Origin: Synechococcus sp. JA-3-3Ab
Lineage (GTDB): Bacteria; Cyanobacteriota; Cyanobacteriia; Thermostichales; Thermostichaceae
Direction of reading: 5' to 3'
NCBI RefSeq assembly: GCF_000013205.1
Contig: NC_007775.1
Coordinates: forward strand, 496,001 to 560,000
DNA: 64,000 nucleotides
The notes beneath the pieces are model-generated. The model did not search any database. It was not told the DNA's origin and saw only the letters and a list, made by a program, of their open reading frames with translations. Position 1 is the first letter of the stretch; every line of letters begins with the position of its first letter. The translations under genes were made by a program, and so were the position numbers. This document shows positions 5,723 to 47,100 of the stretch, piece by piece.

Positions 5723-6670
5723 CTACTCCAGGCCCAGCCGGCGGCGAAAGTAGGGGATAGTCAGCTCCAGGCCAAGCTGCAGAGGAATCTGGGGATCCCA
5801 GCCCAGCAGGGCGCGGGCCTTGTTGATGTCGGGCCGGCGCTGCTTGGGATCGTCGGTTGGGAGAGGCCGGTGGACGATGGGAGAAGAGCTGCCGGTGAGG
5901 GCCAAAACCTGCCGAGCCAACTCTAGAATGGTGACCTCCTGCGGGTTGCCCAGGTTAAAGGGGCCGGGATAAGGGCTGTTCATCAGGCGCACCAGGCCCT
6001 CGATGAGGTCGGAGATGTAGCAGAAGCTACGGGTCTGGGAGCCATCTCCATAGACGGTGAGGGGATTCCCGCGCAGCGCCTGGACGATGAAGTTGCTGAC
6101 CACACGGCCATCGTCTTCCCGCATGGCCGGGCCATAGGTGTTGAAGATGCGGGCCACGCGGATCTCGGTTTGGTGTTGCCGCTGCCAGTCAAAGGTCAGG
6201 GTTTCGGCCAGGCGCTTGGACTCGTCGTAGCAGGCCCGCGGGCCGATGGGGTTGACATGGCCCCAGTAGTCCTCCGGCTGGGGGTGCACCTGGGGATCCC
6301 CGTACACTTCTGAAGTGGAGGCCAGCAGGAACCTGGCCCCCGTTTTCTGGGCCAGCTCCAGCAGGTGGTAGGTGCCCCAGACGCCGGTGCGGATGGTGCG
6401 GATGGGATCCGCCTGGTAGTGGGGCGGCGAGGCGGGACAGGCCAGGTGGTAGATTTGCTCAATGCCAGCTTTCTCCAGCTCCGGCGGCAGCGGCTCGGCC
6501 ACGTCGTGCCACAGCAAGGTCAAGGCAGGGTTGTTGCGGTGGGCCTGCAGGTTCTCCTCCCGCCCCGTGTAGCCGTTGTCGAGGCAGATCACCGTGTGGC
6601 CCTCCTGCAGCAGACGGCTGACCAGATGGGAGCCGATAAACCCCAAACCACCCGTAACCAGGATCTTCAC
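5723..6670 (-). CDS. uxs: UDP-glucuronate decarboxylase (UDP-xylose synthase)
   Basis: An extended short-chain dehydrogenase of 315 residues. It has the NAD-binding motif [11 protein letters not shown], the active-site STSEVYGDP and ACYDESKR (YxxxK), plus [10 protein letters not shown] and [12 protein letters not shown], which are typical of UXS enzymes. It oxidises, decarboxylates and re-reduces UDP-glucuronate to UDP-xylose. Its start overlaps the stop of ugd by four bases (ATGA), so the two are translationally coupled and the pathway runs UDP-Glc to UDP-GlcA to UDP-Xyl. A dTDP-glucose-dehydratase-like role is a weaker alternative. Confidence 0.88.
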
Positions 6671-8085
6671 CAGCCCACTCCAATCAGGGTAATGCCCGCC
6701 TGCTGAACGGCCTGCCGGTCAAGGCAGTTGCGGCCGTCGAGGATGAGGGGCCGCCGCATCAGCTCGGCAAGGCGCCGGTAATCCAGCGACAAAAACTCCG
6801 GCCACTCGGTCACCAGCACCAGGGCGTCGCAATCCTGGGCCAGGCGGAACACGTCCGTTTCCACCACCACGTGGGCCAGGCCCTCCCGCATCCCCGAAGC
6901 CGACACAATGGGATCATAGGCTTTTACCTTGGCCCCCAGCCGGTGGAGCTGCTCGATGAGGGTCAGGGACGGCGCATCCCGCAGGTCGTCGGTGTGGGGC
7001 TTGAAGGTGAGGCCCAGAAGGCCGATGGTCTTGCCCTTGAGCACCTTGAGGGCCTGCTGCAGCTTTTCCAGCAGGCGCTGCCGCTGCTCGCGGTTGACCT
7101 CGACGGTGGCCCGCAACAGCTTGGCCTCATAGCCGTAGTCGGCTGCCGTCTGGATCAAAGCGGCCAGATCCTTGGGAAAGCAGCTCCCTCCCCAGCCTAG
7201 ACCAGCGTTGAGGAAGGCGCGGCCAATGCGCTTATCGAGGCCGATCCCTTCGGCCACCTGGGTGATGTCGGCGCCAGTGCGCTCGCAGATGTTGGCGATC
7301 TCGTTGATGAAGCTGATCTTGGTGGCCAGGAAGGCGTTGGCCGCATATTTGATCATCTCGGCCGAGGCCAGGTCGGTGACCAGCAAGGGCACGGGATCCC
7401 CGCCCAAGCCCTGCTGGCGGCTGAGGATGGGCTCGTAAAGCTGCCGCAGGATCTCGATGGCCCGGGGGCTGTTGGAGCCAATCACGATGCGGTCGGGGTA
7501 AAAGGTATCCTGGATGGCGCTGCCCTCCCGCAGAAACTCGGGGTTGCTCACCACGTCGAAGGGCGGCACCCAGGAAGACCTGTCCAGGGTGGCCAGGGAG
7601 GAGGGGGTGGGATCCCCCCCAGCCAGGGCCATCTGTTGGCTGCTTAGGCGCTGCTGGACAGCCTCGGCGGCGCCGTCGAGGATGAGCATGCGCACCCAGT
7701 CGCCGGAGCCGATGGGCACGGTGGACTTGTTGACGATGACGCGGTAGCGGTTGTCCAGGTGCTGGCCGATCCCTCGCGCCACGGCCTCTACGTAGCGCAG
7801 GTCTGGCTCGCCGCTGGGCAAAGCCGGGGTGCCCACGGCAATGAAGATCACTTCGCTGGCCTTCACCCCCAGGCCCAGGTCGGTGGTAAAGTGCAGCCGG
7901 CCAGCCTCGGCGCCTTCCCGCACCAGCTCTTCCAGGCCGGGCTCGTAGATGGGCAGACGACCTCGCTGCAGGTTTTCGATTTTGACAGGGTTGTTGTCTA
8001 TACAAATAACGCTGTGGCCCAGGTGGGCCAGACAGGCGCCGGTTACCAACCCCACATAGCCAGCTCCCACGACCGCCATGTCCAT
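6667..8085 (-). CDS. ugd: UDP-glucose 6-dehydrogenase
   Basis: Oxidises UDP-glucose to UDP-glucuronate with two NAD. The 472-residue protein has the N-terminal Rossmann motif [20 protein letters not shown], then [12 protein letters not shown], the [10 protein letters not shown] motif, and the catalytic Cys in [11 protein letters not shown] (about residue 270). The UDP-binding C-terminal domain begins near [13 protein letters not shown]. The frame is open to 8772, but that extension overlaps the opposite CDF gene. The start at 8085 has a strong GAGGGGGAGG ribosome site and the family N-terminus. It is first in the operon with uxs. Confidence 0.95.
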
Positions 8086-8226
8086 GGCCGCCTCCCCCTC
8101 GCGTCGGTGCTTGGTTCTAAAATACCCCGCCGGCCCGCATTTCCTATCCCCTCGAAGAAGGTCGGCCCCTAGGGGGAGTCGGTGGCAAAATAAAGCTGAA
8201 CCGGCTTGGTCTGAGGCTCCCCAGCG

Positions 8227-9141
8227 GTGAGCTTCCCCGATTCTGCTGCCATAGCCAGCCGCCGTCAGCGCCAGGTGCAGAGGGTGCTCTATGTCACCCT
8301 GGGGCTCAATCTTTTGGTGTTTTCGGTCAAGTTGATCCTGGGATTGGCGACGGGATCCCTCAGCTTGGTGGCCGATGCCCTGCACAGTGTTACCGACAGC
8401 GCCAGCAACATTCTTGCCCTGCTGGCAGCCCGCTTTTCCTCGCCAGAGCCGGACGAAGACCATCCCTATGGCCGCAGCAAGTTTGAGGCCATTGGAGCGC
8501 TGGGGATCGCCGCCTTTTTGGGAGTGGCCAGCTTCGAGATCCTCAGCGCAGCGGTGGGGCGGTTTTTTGCACCCCAGCCGCCGCAGCTCCGGATCGAGGG
8601 GTTGACCTTGACGCTGATGCTGGGCGTGCTGGGGATCAACCTCTTCGTGGCCGTCTATGAACGTTTCTGGGGCAGGGCGCTGGCCAGCTCGCTGCTCTTG
8701 GCCGATGCCCGCCATACCCTCAGCGATGTCTGGGTAACCCTGACGGTATTGCTGGGTCTGGCCGGGATCCACTTCTGGGGGATCCCTTGGCTGGACCAGG
8801 TGCTGGCGGTGCCGGTGGGGCTGCTGGTGTTCTGGAGCGGCTGGGAAGTGCTGCGGGAAAACGTTCCCTTCTTAACCGACCGGGTGGCTATCCCCCCCAA
8901 AACCTTGCGGGAGCTGGTTCTCAGCCTGCCCGGGATCCTCGACTGCCACGACATCACCTCCCGCGGCATCCCGGGGCAGATGATCTTTATCGAAATGCAC
9001 ATGGTGGTGGAGCCGCTGGATGTGGAGTCGGCCCATCGCCTTACCGAAGCGGTGGAGCAACTGCTGCAGCAGCGCTACGGGCCGGTGCGGGTCACCATCC
9101 ACCTGGAGCCCTACTCCCACATCGAGGGATCCCGTTCCTAG
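8227..9141 (+). CDS. Cation diffusion facilitator transporter
   Basis: A 304-residue CDF-family metal/proton antiporter, probably for Zn(II) or a similar divalent ion. Six membrane segments are expected. The two metal-site motifs are ADALHSVTDSASN (HxxxD, helix 2) and ADARHTLSDVWV (HxxxD, helix 5). A cytosolic metallochaperone-like C-terminal domain follows (about residues 215-300, with EMHMVVEP). GTG at 8227 is the start, giving the normal N-terminal length. HxxxD in both helices is the pattern usually linked to Zn/Cd transport, but specificity cannot be fixed from sequence. Confidence 0.92.
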   Translation: MSFPDSAAIASRRQRQVQRVLYVTLGLNLLVFSVKLILGLATGSLSLVADALHSVTDSASNILALLAARFSSPEPDEDHPYGRSKFEAIGALGIAAFLGVASFEILSAAVGRFFAPQPPQLRIEGLTLTLMLGVLGINLFVAVYERFWGRALASSLLLADARHTLSDVWVTLTVLLGLAGIHFWGIPWLDQVLAVPVGLLVFWSGWEVLRENVPFLTDRVAIPPKTLRELVLSLPGILDCHDITSRGIPGQMIFIEMHMVVEPLDVESAHRLTEAVEQLLQQRYGPVRVTIHLEPYSHIEGSRS

Positions 9142-42609: not shown

Positions 42610-43299
42610 CTAGGAACCGGCGGCCAGCCGATCCCAAATCTCCTCGTGGGAGAGGCCTTTGCGCACCCATTCTTCACAATTGTGCAGGCGCTGGGCGGTG
42701 CCGATGAGGAAGCGGTTGAGGTCGGCCCCCAGGGACTCGCAGGTGGTCTGCACACAGACTAGATCCCGTTCCGAGAGCAAGGAGAAGAGGCCGGCCAGCA
42801 TGCCCGCCTCCAGATGGCCAGCCGGCTCCCGCCGCGCAGACAGTTCCTCCGGCCTAAGGCTGGCACGAGCAGCCAGGGCAAAGCCGGAGTTGCGGATCTT
42901 GGCTTGAACCAGGCCGCGGTCGGCGGCGGAAAAATCCAGCTCCAGGCGGCCCCAGCCGTGGGTGGCCCAGAGATCGCTGAGGGCATCGAGGAAGATCCCC
43001 ATCGGCAATTCCTGCAACGGCTGTTGGTAGTAGCGGGAGAGTTCGTCTTCAATGCGGCGGAAAAACGCCTCTCCCCACTCGCGACCACAGTTGTAGAGGA
43101 TGACGCGGGTGGCTTGGCCGGTTTCGTAGCGCAAGCCGGCGTAGATGGCTTCCAAGAGGGGCATGGGAAAGGCCGCCAGGCGGTATCCTCCCCGGCTGTA
43201 GAGCAGGCCGCTGTGGATGTCGGGGCGGATGTAGTAGGCAGGGCTGAAGCAGTGGCCGGGCAGGATCTGGTCTTGCAGGAGCTCTTGCAGGGTGGTCAT
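42610..43299 (-). CDS. V4R-domain protein (last gene of PAP-like cluster)
   Basis: A 229-residue protein. It contains a V4R (4-vinyl reductase) domain related to BchJ and to small-ligand sensors: RVILYNCGREWGEAFFRRIE in the middle, and HLEAGMLAGLFSLLSERDLV with VCVQTTCESLGADLNRFLIG at the end. It pairs with the second V4R gene at 44751-45434. In Synechocystis the slr0144-slr0152 (PAP) operon, linked to photosystem II assembly, also has two V4R proteins; this one is probably the Slr0144-type. Tetrapyrrole binding is a reasonable inference but is not shown by sequence. Confidence 0.82.
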   Translation of the reverse strand: MTTLQELLQDQILPGHCFSPAYYIRPDIHSGLLYSRGGYRLAAFPMPLLEAIYAGLRYETGQATRVILYNCGREWGEAFFRRIEDELSRYYQQPLQELPMGIFLDALSDLWATHGWGRLELDFSAADRGLVQAKIRNSGFALAARASLRPEELSARREPAGHLEAGMLAGLFSLLSERDLVCVQTTCESLGADLNRFLIGTAQRLHNCEEWVRKGLSHEEIWDRLAAGS

Positions 43300-43315: not shown

Positions 43316-43795
43316 CTAGTTGACCAGCATCGACTTGGCCAAGAGCACGTAGGGGCGGATGGACTCGCTCTCTTCGGGGCCGAAAACAGCGCTGAGGGAG
43401 TCGAGCATCAACTTGTAGGCGGGCTGGCACTGGTCGCGCATCTTGAAAGATTTCAGGATCGTCTCCAGCCAGTAGAGCAACTTATCCCGCAGGTAATCCT
43501 CGTCATTGAGCAGCATAGCCAGGCAGCAGTAGCGCCACACCATGATCAGGTCGCGGCGGCAGCGCTCCCAGGCCAGGTGCCCATGTTGGCGGGGCAAATT
43601 CGGCATCATCTGTTGGAACTTTTCCATCACCCAATCCACCAGCTCCTGCTCCTTGGCCTGCAGGACTTGATACAGGCGGACTCGTTTGGGGATCCCTTCC
43701 ACGTAGGCGTGTAGGGTTTTCAACTCATCTGGGCACAGATAGCGACCCTCGCTTTGCTGCATCAGCTCGGCCACGCTTGAATTCATCAGCATCAT
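43316..43795 (-). CDS. Phycobiliprotein-like globin with a CxRD bilin motif
   Basis: A 159-residue protein with the phycobilisome globin pattern: GRYLCPDELKTLHAYVEGIP and RLYQVLQAKEQELVDWVMEK in the front helices, then WERCRRDLIMVWRYCCLAML and LKSF. CRRD aligns with the CxRD sequence whose Cys holds phycocyanobilin in allophycocyanin. It is about as long as APC subunits but far diverged, and it sits in a photosystem-assembly-type cluster, not a phycobilisome operon. It may bind a bilin or another tetrapyrrole. Confidence 0.78.
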   Translation of the reverse strand: MMLMNSSVAELMQQSEGRYLCPDELKTLHAYVEGIPKRVRLYQVLQAKEQELVDWVMEKFQQMMPNLPRQHGHLAWERCRRDLIMVWRYCCLAMLLNDEDYLRDKLLYWLETILKSFKMRDQCQPAYKLMLDSLSAVFGPEESESIRPYVLLAKSMLVN

Positions 43796-43817: not shown

Positions 43818-44342
43818 TTACGCGAACATTTCCATCAGGGTAGGTGCCGGTTCCGAGGCCCCTTCTGCCTTGGCTTTAGGCAAAGGGGCAGAAGAGGGAT
43901 CCCCAGTAACCCGCAGGAGTTGCCAGTAGGGGGCAAGCAGTTCCCATTGCTCTGCTGACAGGGATCCCTGCACCACTGCACCTAGTTGATCCAGCGCCTG
44001 CGGCAGCCCCAAATACTGTTCCATCGCGCCAAGGGTCCCCTGCTGCAGAGGGGTGGGATCCCCCAGCAACAGGCTCAAGCCCAGGGAGCGCAGGCAGAAG
44101 GCCAGTTGCCGGGCCAAGAGGCGCTGAGCGGGGGTAAGAGAGGATTCTGCCCCGCCGGTGTACCCGTGCTGTTGCAGAACCTGCTCGATCCACGCCCGCT
44201 CTTGTTGTTGCAAGACTTGGTAGAGATCCAGCCGCTCTGGAAACGAGAGGGCGTAGCGGATGAGATCTTGCAGATCGTCGGGTGTCAGGTAATCCCCTTC
44301 TCGATCGGCAATGCGCTCCGGCCAAGGGCGAAGGTCGTTCAT
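43818..44342 (-). CDS. Phycobiliprotein-like protein without the bilin cysteine
   Basis: A 174-residue paralogue of the next gene: DYLTPDDLQDLIRYALSFPE and RLDLYQVLQQQERAWIEQVL match its front helices, and LARQLAFCLRSLGLSLLLGD matches the chromophore helix. Here the CxRD motif reads LARQ, so no covalent bilin is expected. The ATG at 44342 is chosen; the frame continues upstream only because it runs into the preceding frameshifted gene. The Pro/Ala-rich C-terminal tail ends APTLMEMFA. Confidence 0.75.
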   Translation of the reverse strand: MNDLRPWPERIADREGDYLTPDDLQDLIRYALSFPERLDLYQVLQQQERAWIEQVLQQHGYTGGAESSLTPAQRLLARQLAFCLRSLGLSLLLGDPTPLQQGTLGAMEQYLGLPQALDQLGAVVQGSLSAEQWELLAPYWQLLRVTGDPSSAPLPKAKAEGASEPAPTLMEMFA

Positions 44343-44427: not shown

Positions 44428-44696
44428 CTAAAGCAAAGCTCCGCCAAACAAAGCGGCAAAATCCTCAAGGGTAAAGGGATCCTCTGGCGGCAGCTCTGGG
44501 CGCAGGCAGATGCCCGACCAATTGCAGCCGGCAAAAACACCGACTGGGCCAAAAGCAGGGACGCGCCGAACTCCGGCAACACTTCTGAGGAGAAAAAGGT
44601 CTGGACTGAGGGACGGTTATCCCAATTCAACCCTTGCAAAAAAACTGCTAGCGGTTGCCCTAAGTCCAGATTGGGGTTGAGGTTGGAAGTAAGCAT
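44428..44696 (-). pseudogene. Small PAP-cluster protein split by a one-base frameshift
   Basis: The start at 44696 has GGGGAGG six bases upstream. The first frame reads LGQPLAVFLQGLNWDNRPSV and then FFSSEVLPEFGASLLLAQSV; a second frame continues FAGCNWSGICLRPELPPEDP and TLEDFAALFGGALL to a stop at 44428. The frames join if the five-A run at 44533-44537 (T on the coding strand) had six bases, giving AQSVFFAGCNWSG in an 89-residue protein with two QGLNW/AGCNW-type repeats. It may be a real mutation, a sequencing error or slippage at the homopolymer. Confidence 0.7.
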
Positions 44697-44750
44697 AGGC
44701 ATCCTCCCCACAATGCCGAAGAGAGGGACTGCAAAAGCCACAGGCAGGCC

Positions 44751-45434
44751 TCACAGTTGGCGCAAACGCTGCTCGATCTCACGGGCGCTGGCCCCTTCGC
44801 TCATCCAGAAATTGGCGGCATCGATGCGCTCTTGGCTGCCCAGCAAAAACTTGCAGTAGGTTTCGCCCATTGCGTAGCACTGGATCTCGATGCAGGCCAG
44901 CTCACGGGAGGTCATGGCAGAGAAAAATCCGGCAAACAGCCCGGCATAGAGGTGACAAACCGGTTTGCCCACGTCGCCCAGGGTGCGGGCCACCATCGAG
45001 TCAAACAGGTTGATGAACAAGAACCCTTTTTGTTTGGATTCGGTTTCCACCTCCCACTTGCCCCACCCTTGCGCCGTAAAGGGCCACCACCAGGTCTCCA
45101 GCAAAAACAAAAGGTTGGACTGCTTGACCCCAACCCCGTACTCCCGCTCGTACCACTGGGAAAAGTGCTGGGCATCGCGGACGCCCCACTCCTTGCCGAT
45201 GGTGTACATCACCGCCGCAGAGGCATCGCCCACTTCCCGCTCTAGGCCGGCCTGCAGGCCGACAATGAAGTCTTCGCTAAGCAGCAGGTTTTGGGTGTTA
45301 TTCCAGTCGATAATCGTGCCTTGCTCTCGGTTAAAGCGGAAGAAATCGCGGTAGCTGTAGTGAGCGTGCTTGTCGCGGCCCACCGGCATGGTGACTGCGG
45401 GACGGGGATCCGATCGAGTGGTGGTGCTAACCAT
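44751..45434 (-). CDS. V4R-domain protein (Slr0147-type)
   Basis: A 227-residue protein with a C-terminal V4R domain: AAVMYTIGKEWGVRDAQHFS at the front, and HLYAGLFAGFFSAMTSRELA with CIEIQCYAMGETYCKFLLGS at the end. WWWPFTAQGWGKWEVE in the middle is unusually aromatic and could line a ligand pocket. It is the second gene of the cluster after the ferredoxin-like protein, an arrangement that recalls Synechocystis slr0147-slr0148. No membrane segment is present. Confidence 0.84.
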   Translation of the reverse strand: MVSTTTRSDPRPAVTMPVGRDKHAHYSYRDFFRFNREQGTIIDWNNTQNLLLSEDFIVGLQAGLEREVGDASAAVMYTIGKEWGVRDAQHFSQWYEREYGVGVKQSNLLFLLETWWWPFTAQGWGKWEVETESKQKGFLFINLFDSMVARTLGDVGKPVCHLYAGLFAGFFSAMTSRELACIEIQCYAMGETYCKFLLGSQERIDAANFWMSEGASAREIEQRLRQL

Positions 45435-45606: not shown

Positions 45607-46092
45607 TTAGGCCTCGCTGGTCTGGGCAAGGGTGCTGCCGATGATGCGAAAATCTTCGTTTTCCAGTTGCTTGACGGTGGAGCGAGTGATGATCTTGCCC
45701 TGCTCCACCAAAACGCGCCCCGTCCGCGGGTGGAGCAGATCTTGTTCGGCCCGCCGACCGATGAGCACTTCGATATCCCTGAGCGAGTTCACGTACATCC
45801 CCGGCGGCAGCTCCACCACCACCCCATCGGCCACCACCCGCGCCTGACAGGCCAGCCGGGAATTGCTGCGGGCGCTGGTGATTGTCTCCAGGGTTTTCGC
45901 CTCGCGGGGGGTGATGGGGGTAAGAGCCTCCATCCCCTCCTTGACGTGGACATGACAGGTGGCGCAGAGGCCGCGACCGTTGCATTCCTTTGAGACATGG
46001 AGCTCCTCCGACAAAATGGCCGACAGCAAATTGCTGTAGGTATCCACCTCCGAGACGCGGGATAGGGGCTCTAGCCGGATTTGTTTCACCAT
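45607..46092 (-). CDS. [2Fe-2S] ferredoxin-like protein (Slr0148-type)
   Basis: A 161-residue protein with an adrenodoxin/plant-type fold in the first 105 residues: CNGRGLCATCHVHV supplies three cluster cysteines (CxxxxxCxxC) and SRLACQARV the fourth. A C-terminal extension of about 50 residues (DLLHPRTGRVLVEQGKIITR) is not part of normal ferredoxins. The ATG at 46092 is the start (MVKQIRLEPL). It is first in the PAP-like cluster, so it probably supplies electrons to a cluster partner; this is inference. Confidence 0.88.
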   Translation of the reverse strand: MVKQIRLEPLSRVSEVDTYSNLLSAILSEELHVSKECNGRGLCATCHVHVKEGMEALTPITPREAKTLETITSARSNSRLACQARVVADGVVVELPPGMYVNSLRDIEVLIGRRAEQDLLHPRTGRVLVEQGKIITRSTVKQLENEDFRIIGSTLAQTSEA

Positions 46093-46536
46093 AGGCGGGA
46101 TCCCCAAGTTCAAAGCAAACAAAACCTCTGCCGACAGGCACGCCCTGCCGCAAAAGCAATGCAAGCGGAAAATCAGTTTCTACTCGTATTCTGGATTTTG
46201 ACCAGGCTGGAAGAATCAAAATGTCATAATCTTTAACTACGAGTAGATACGGAAAAGTTATCCATCCAGAAAGCTGGAAAGTAGAATCACGTAAACCCGA
46301 GAAAACTGTGGCCTTCTCGTAAATATTTATCGCAAGCTTCCCCAGTTCATCTTATCGACAAGATAAATCTTGAGTAGGGCTTTTGCTCGATTGGGTTCCA
46401 GGTTGGCATTGACAATTTTTGGATCGGGCTACTGCCGACTGTAAAAGTTATCGAGCAACTCTATCTTCATCGTTTCTTTAAGTCGATCTTTTGGCTAATC
46501 GCTTTTTGTCGGTCGCGTTGCTTGGGAGCTATCGCT
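46093..46536. promoter_or_regulatory. Divergent control region of the PAP-like cluster and linker gene
   Basis: A 444-bp A+T-rich region between two divergent genes. It contains a perfect 10-bp inverted repeat, TCTACTCGTA at 46179-46188 and TACGAGTAGA at 46238-46247, with 49 bp between. This could be two operator half-sites or a hairpin in the leader of the ferredoxin-like gene. TTGACA at about 46409 is a possible -35 box for the linker gene. I see no small gene in it. Confidence 0.55.
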
Positions 46537-47100
46537 ATGGAACTACGCCAGCGGGATCCGCAACTGTTGCAAAACCTGTTGCGGGCCGCCTACCAACAGC
46601 TTTTGGAACGCCAGCCCTACCAGCACGAGAAGGCGGGAGAGCTGGAGAAGATCGAGCAGGACTTCTTGCGGGGCCAAATTGGGATCAAGCGCTTGGTTCG
46701 CCAAATTGGGGGATCCCGGCTCTACCGGCAGCTCTTTTTCAGTGCCGGCTGCAACACCCGCTGTGTGGAGCAGGCTTTTAAGCACTTTTTGGGACGGGCG
46801 CCGGCCAGCAGGGAGGAGGTGGCGGCCTATCACAACATTCTGGTGCGCCAGGGCTTTCAAGCCATGGTCAATGCCTTTATCGACTCGGAGGAATACCGCC
46901 GCACGTTTGGCAACGACCGTCTGCCCCACCCGCGGCAGCGGCTGAGCGGCTACCCGCCTCTGGCCTACCTGCTGACAGAGCAGATGCACCGGCGCCATGA
47001 GCTGGCGATGCAGGGATCGCCGCGGCTGCAGAGCTTGGCGGTGATGGAGGGAGGTGGGATCCCTCAGGCGGTGGGGCCGGGGAGAAAGTCGAGGCTGTAG
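46537..47100 (+). CDS. Phycobilisome rod-core-type linker, short form
   Basis: A 187-residue protein made almost entirely of one phycobilisome linker domain (about residues 3-130: QNLLRAAYQQLLERQPYQ, FLRGQIGIKRLVRQIGGSRL, NTRCVEQAFKHFLGRAP, AFIDSEEYRRTFG). CpcG-type linkers are about 250 residues long with a C-terminal extension; here the tail is short. The ATG at 46537 has a GGGAG site. It diverges from the PAP-like cluster and overlaps the convergent binding-protein gene by 37 bp. It may dock an unusual phycobiliprotein, perhaps a cluster product. Confidence 0.82.
   Translation: MELRQRDPQLLQNLLRAAYQQLLERQPYQHEKAGELEKIEQDFLRGQIGIKRLVRQIGGSRLYRQLFFSAGCNTRCVEQAFKHFLGRAPASREEVAAYHNILVRQGFQAMVNAFIDSEEYRRTFGNDRLPHPRQRLSGYPPLAYLLTEQMHRRHELAMQGSPRLQSLAVMEGGGIPQAVGPGRKSRL

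Follow-up and report, generated by a model that had tools for sequence, protein, structure and literature searches.

A conserved CxRD globin, its cysteine-less tandem paralogue and a distinct phycobilisome-type linker in Thermostichales: a candidate bilin-binding unit outside the antenna

Our analysis of a 64,000-nucleotide stretch of the genome of the hot-spring cyanobacterium Synechococcus sp. JA-3-3Ab (NC_007775.1, positions 496,001 to 560,000; hereafter, the window) identifies a gene cluster in which a globin with a predicted phycobiliprotein fold keeps the Cys, Arg and Asp of the bilin-attachment motif, lies in tandem with a paralogue lacking the Cys and the Asp, and is accompanied by a phycobilisome-type linker from a clade that, in other cyanobacteria, co-occurs with a further Cys- and Asp-bearing globin. 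As an explanation to which we assign an even chance, we propose that the first globin (globin A) binds a bilin, pairs with the second (globin B), acts together with the other proteins of the cluster and is tethered by the linker, the whole serving photosystem assembly or repair. The features concerned are the following:

42610-43299, minus strand: V4R-domain protein B (PF02830, 41 bits)
43316-43795, minus strand: globin A, a Cys-bearing globin of the BBAG (bilin biosynthesis-associated globin) type, 159 aa (PF00502 match, AlphaFold2 model, fold comparison)
43550-43561, minus strand: CRRD, putative bilin-attachment motif, globin A residues 79-82, Cys codon at 43559-43561 (alignment, conservation)
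43818-44342, minus strand: globin B, a Cys-less and Asp-less paralogue, 174 aa, its C-terminal tail ending in TLMEMFA (PF00502, alignment, model)
44106-44117, minus strand: LARQ at the CxRD place, globin B residues 76-79 (alignment)
44431-44702, minus strand: remnant of a small cluster gene, LNWDNRP ... TLEDFAALF (comparison with relatives)
44751-45434, minus strand: V4R-domain protein A (PF02830, 71.3 bits; 16-member alignment)
45607-46164, minus strand: 2Fe-2S ferredoxin of the cluster, slr0148 type (PF00111, 34.4 bits)
46522-47100, plus strand: divergent single-domain phycobilisome-type linker of the LERQPY clade (PF00427, 126.8 bits; clade tree)

The original prediction had aligned CRRD with the CxRD motif of the bilin-binding Cys and had noted LARQ at the same place in the paralogue. 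Both alignments held: phmmer places the Cys of globin A (translation excerpt ...WERCRRDLIMVWRY..., read from the minus strand, the likely start being Met4 at 43786, which matches the start of its orthologues) under the bilin Cys of solved phycobiliproteins, and all Thermostichales orthologues of globin B (translation excerpt ...RLLARQLAFCLRS...) have Leu at the Cys place. The expected conservation of the Cys was likewise borne out, with C, R and D present in every globin A orthologue found, all of them from Thermostichales, down to 50% identity. To judge from a dN/dS of 0.07-0.10 among these orthologues, globin A is under strong purifying selection, and this value, together with the conservation, argues that the Cys-Arg-Asp motif is not due to chance. 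PF00502 matches both globins above the Pfam cut-off (E 4.8e-17 for A, 6.4e-7 for B), and globin A reaches no curated cut-off for a phycobiliprotein subunit, its 30 bits comparing with 228 required for ApcB.

Nothing in the monomer model of globin A spoke against the original prediction. Globin A was modelled by AlphaFold2 with a pLDDT of 93.3 and a pTM of 0.86 and has the full phycobiliprotein fold, N-terminal helices included; globin B was modelled with values of 85.4 and 0.75. The closest solved folds to both are allophycocyanins and their relatives, globin A superposing on an allophycocyanin-core chain with Z 18.9 and an rmsd of 2.2 Å over 154 residues and globin B on its nearest solved fold with Z 15.8 and 3.1 Å over 143 residues; phycobiliproteins and bilin-binding relatives alone stand near the top of the fold tables, which say nothing against other folds. 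At the equivalents of Asp13, Arg93 and Tyr97, which belong to the phycobiliprotein alpha-beta contact, globin A has Gln, Arg and Leu and globin B has Asp, Arg and Leu, against D, R and Y in each of the genome's eight phycobiliproteins. The near-constant Arg93 equivalent would fit a phycobiliprotein-like contact, with Asp13 retained in globin B only and Tyr97 in neither. Near the bilin, Tyr90 and Tyr91 are replaced in globin A by Met and Val.

On the minus strand, the genes follow in the order 2Fe-2S protein, V4R protein A, small-gene remnant, globin B, globin A and V4R protein B, an operon-like row from whose order and spacing we infer an operon; a promoter and terminator scan of the region gave matches no more numerous than in shuffles, and no tandem repeats were found there. 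With one V4R protein each from clades A and B, with a 2Fe-2S protein and without FDBR or HO, the locus fits the cyanobacterial BBAG cluster of Rockwell, Martin and Lagarias (2023), consisting of an Fe-S protein, two V4R proteins and a globin and exemplified by slr0144-slr0149 (PMC10151467). According to the same work, cyanobacterial BBAG clusters derive from bacterial clusters that make bilins, duplications have occurred within clusters, and CXRD is present in some cyanobacterial BBAGs, so that a Cys-bearing globin in such a cluster is a new instance of a reported kind. The BBAG-1, -2 and -3 proteins take up bilins in E. coli without lyases, according to PMC10151467, which assigns no function to the cyanobacterial BBAGs; the proteins Slr0144-Slr0149 are interaction partners at the thylakoid and have been tied to photosynthetic repair (PMC9880817). 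Judged by its bilin genes (one heme oxygenase and one bilin reductase, both located elsewhere), the JA-3-3Ab genome is one that makes bilin.

We compared the globins of such clusters across 80 named loci and a systematic sample of the phylum. Type I globins, slr0149-like by cluster position, form a supported group (100/99) and retain the Asp in 74 of 75 cases, Trp-bearing proteins included; Cys is present in 26 of the 34 from the genome sample, the rest having mostly Trp, and Trp occupies the Cys place in 36 of the 41 from the V4R-nearest sample. Cys and Asp are found in all type III globins (100/99), and Cys-x-x-Asp in none of the 113 type II globins, located between the V4R genes, outside Thermostichales. 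At two-globin loci, an Asp-bearing type I globin stands beside an Asp-less type II globin in 65 of 70, which reflects one old duplication and not 65 independent events; a clear type I globin, often unlinked, also occurs in 15 of 16 genomes with type II, the exception being a draft (G223). The predicted combination of a motif-keeping and a motif-less globin stands, A having the full motif and B neither Cys nor Asp, but the suggestion that the pair mirrors the ancient alpha/beta split of the phycobilisome does not, because both antenna partners keep the Cys and because all BBAG-type globins form a group of their own, separate from the genome's eight phycobiliproteins (100/100; 97/96 with the type IV globins described below added).

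JA-3-3Ab has four BBAG-type globins, namely A, B, the single globin of a second BBAG cluster (L025, CRRH) and an unlinked type I globin (L026, WRAD). A concatenated V4R tree unites the two Thermostichales clusters with 90/89 support, so that a duplication of the cluster within this lineage is probable, in agreement with PMC13326532. That globin A is the orthologue of slr0149 (type I) is ruled out by the WRAD copy, which is the type I globin of this genome. Among the origin trees, none of those joining A with type II, with types I and III or with type IV was rejected, nor was B with A or B with type II; close kinship of A with type IV has a p-AU of 0.27, and the tree slightly favours kinship with type II (88/78).

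We note several features of these neighbourhoods. The type I globin gene of the genome (L026:5831-6304, minus strand) is divergent from an ftsH gene (6516-8450, plus strand; TIGR01241, 831 bits), and an FtsH-like sequence also adjoins the type I globin in G326; none was noticed around the G171 copy. A gvpA-like gas vesicle gene (L025:5133-5585, minus strand) lies immediately upstream of the second BBAG cluster. Type III clusters (L190-L195) have a single C-x-x-D globin and their own V4R clade (100/100), with a second 2Fe-2S gene in L191-L193 and L195. A cluster from a different class of the phylum (L141, genome G010) comprises genes for a 2Fe-2S protein, a V4R protein, an FF-x4-W-repeat protein, a globin (VSRD), a V4R protein and a heme oxygenase (PF01126), and its other strand encodes a separate 268-aa protein resembling two tandem phycobilisome-type globins.

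Type IV, a further BBAG-like group, came to light in a check for genomes with type II but no type I. The Cys and Asp are invariant in the nine proteins aligned (mostly RC-x-YD), and the globin adjoins a single-domain phycobilisome-type linker with an LERQPY signature; the two-gene unit is present at L229-L233 and L235-L237 (genomes G280, G027, G011, G164, G223, G340, G276 and G123), the L235 linker having two LERQPY-type domains. The idea that type IV stands in for a type I globin without the Cys, giving one Cys-bearing BBAG per genome, was suggested by an exploration sample (type IV in 0 of 24 genomes with Cys-type I against 14 of 18 with Trp-type I) but did not hold in a second set made up mainly of new genomes (1 of 5 against 18 of 34, p = 0.34).

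One clade (12 rows, 100/99), apart from the CpcG, CpcC and ApcE domains, unites the window linker with those beside type IV globins, and the window linker, outside the CpcG clade, scores 73.9 bits against a curated CpcG2 cut-off of 420. According to a survey of thermophile phycobilisomes, JA-3-3Ab has a single cpcG and a single cpcC (PMC10053587); since two other genes of the genome, which group with the CpcG and CpcC linker types (G000:C1:222473-222841 with the CpcG type), match these counts, the window linker seems to be uncatalogued. It is divergent from the 2Fe-2S gene and lies about 2.7 kb from globin A, hence not adjacent to it, and it stands beside the cluster in all Thermostichales having the locus. 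In a search of 386 genomes, with a wide score gap (at least 247 bits against at most 137), the LERQPY linker was found in 18, exactly the 15 with type IV globins and three Thermostichales, which have globin A and no type IV; in 14 of the 15 it adjoins the type IV globin. Among 41 further genomes, mostly fresh, of which at least two were already part of the first sample (L102 = G054, L080 = G283), both Thermostichales have the linker; of the remaining 39, it is present in 18 of the 19 with type IV and in 1 of the 20 without. Fisher p values for the co-occurrence with type IV, which ignore shared ancestry, are 3e-27 and 6e-9, respectively. We found no description of an association between a BBAG-type globin and a linker in the open-access literature, and the main text of PMC10151467 mentions linkers as phycobilisome parts only.

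The small cluster gene is intact in three relatives (L137, L057 and L058) and frameshifted in JA-3-3Ab, where the 7 nt GGACAGT of these relatives are missing, a deletion that is either real or a sequence error; as a consequence, its N-terminal half runs in frame into globin B, yielding one 307-codon ORF. The small protein ends in FTLEDFAALF (L057:6499-6525), which the globin B tail PTLMEMFA (43818-43850; LTLAEMFV in relatives) resembles, and this resemblance suggests a shared docking motif.

In the mechanism that we propose, Cys79 of globin A would covalently bind a bilin, probably phycocyanobilin, and Arg81 and Asp82 would hold the tetrapyrrole. A chromophore-bearing role for globin A is plausible from its motif, and we infer heterodimerisation with globin B, which would be a diverged, chromophore-less partner packing on A in the fashion of phycobiliprotein subunits. 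The partners of the A-B unit would be both V4R proteins, the cluster's 2Fe-2S ferredoxin and the small motif protein, and the linker would anchor the unit on either the photosynthetic membrane or the phycobilisome; its likely job would be photosystem assembly or repair, with the bilin as ligand, sensor or quencher, and not bulk light harvesting. Against bilin binding by such a pair speak the Gln/Leu and Met/Val replacements in globin A described above, the weak fluorescence of the BBAGs tested so far, and the main text of PMC10151467, where bilin-binding tests cover non-cyanobacterial BBAGs only; the distance and divergent orientation of the linker speak against its part in the proposal.

The A-B unit itself is called into question by the rapid evolution of globin B (dN/dS 0.18-0.37), which has a very long branch in the trees and could be decaying. 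These features, the reading frame merged with a broken neighbour in JA-3-3Ab and the single globin of the second cluster would be expected if globin A were a self-sufficient homodimeric bilin sensor or carrier and globin B a decaying duplicate without a chromophore role. We consider this somewhat unlikely, given that all five Thermostichales having the locus retain an intact globin B in tandem with globin A, that purifying selection on it persists, and that an Asp-less partner globin recurs in other cyanobacteria. Alternatively, CxRD may be a relic in a purely structural assembly factor that binds no bilin, like the Trp-bearing relatives. The frequent Trp of type I (with 8 of 34 lacking Cys in the genome sample), including the WRAD copy of this very genome, indicates that the family works without a thioether in many species; nevertheless, the retention of C, R and D even in the most distant globin A orthologues makes a relic unlikely, and the near-invariant Asp of type I suggests that even the Trp-bearing pocket may still hold a ligand.

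Very improbable, in our view, is that globin A is a true phycobilisome subunit, an allophycocyanin variant joined to the antenna via the linker. Its allophycocyanin-like fold and motif and the phycobilisome-type linker beside the cluster are what such a subunit would show, but globin A lies outside the phycobiliprotein clade, falls far below the ApcB cut-off and is devoid of the usual contact residues, and the linker belongs to none of the CpcG, CpcC and ApcE types.

The BBAG gene cluster touches photosystem II assembly, and the conserved linker association provides a BBAG-type globin with a testable partner. A distinct linker beside the cluster, paired elsewhere with a similar globin, hints at a second, non-antenna pigment-protein complex in cyanobacteria. 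As a tentative possibility, a Cys-bearing BBAG-type globin may dock on its own LERQPY linker subfamily, the two genes being paired in several cyanobacterial families and the globin part being taken by A and B in the early-branching Thermostichales, to form a small phycobilisome-like particle whose task would be photosystem assembly or sensing and not light harvesting. If this is true, the globin-plus-linker architecture of the antenna is used outside the antenna, an early-branching lineage included, which bears on the origin of the phycobilisome.

New in this study are the C/R/D conservation in globin A, the recurrent pairing of Asp-bearing and Asp-less globins, and the LERQPY clade with its co-occurring Cys/Asp globins. 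Like slr0144-slr0149 and other cyanobacterial BBAG clusters (PMC10151467), the locus joins PF00502 globins distinct from the light-harvesting phycobiliproteins to a V4R pair and a 2Fe-2S protein; unlike the slr0144-slr0149 type, it has Cys-bearing and Cys-less globins in tandem, a lineage confined to Thermostichales and a phycobilisome-type linker alongside. Globin A shares with allophycocyanin alpha and beta the predicted fold (Z 17-19, rmsd 2.2-2.5 Å, about 154 residues) and C-x-R-D at the same place, but is about 20% identical to them, lies outside the phycobiliprotein clade and lacks the Asp13/Tyr97 equivalents as described, and allophycocyanin carries bilin on both partners. The window linker, finally, has one PBS_linker_poly domain, as do the CpcG/CpcL rod-core linkers, but differs from them in its separate clade and in its score, far short of the CpcG2 cut-off.
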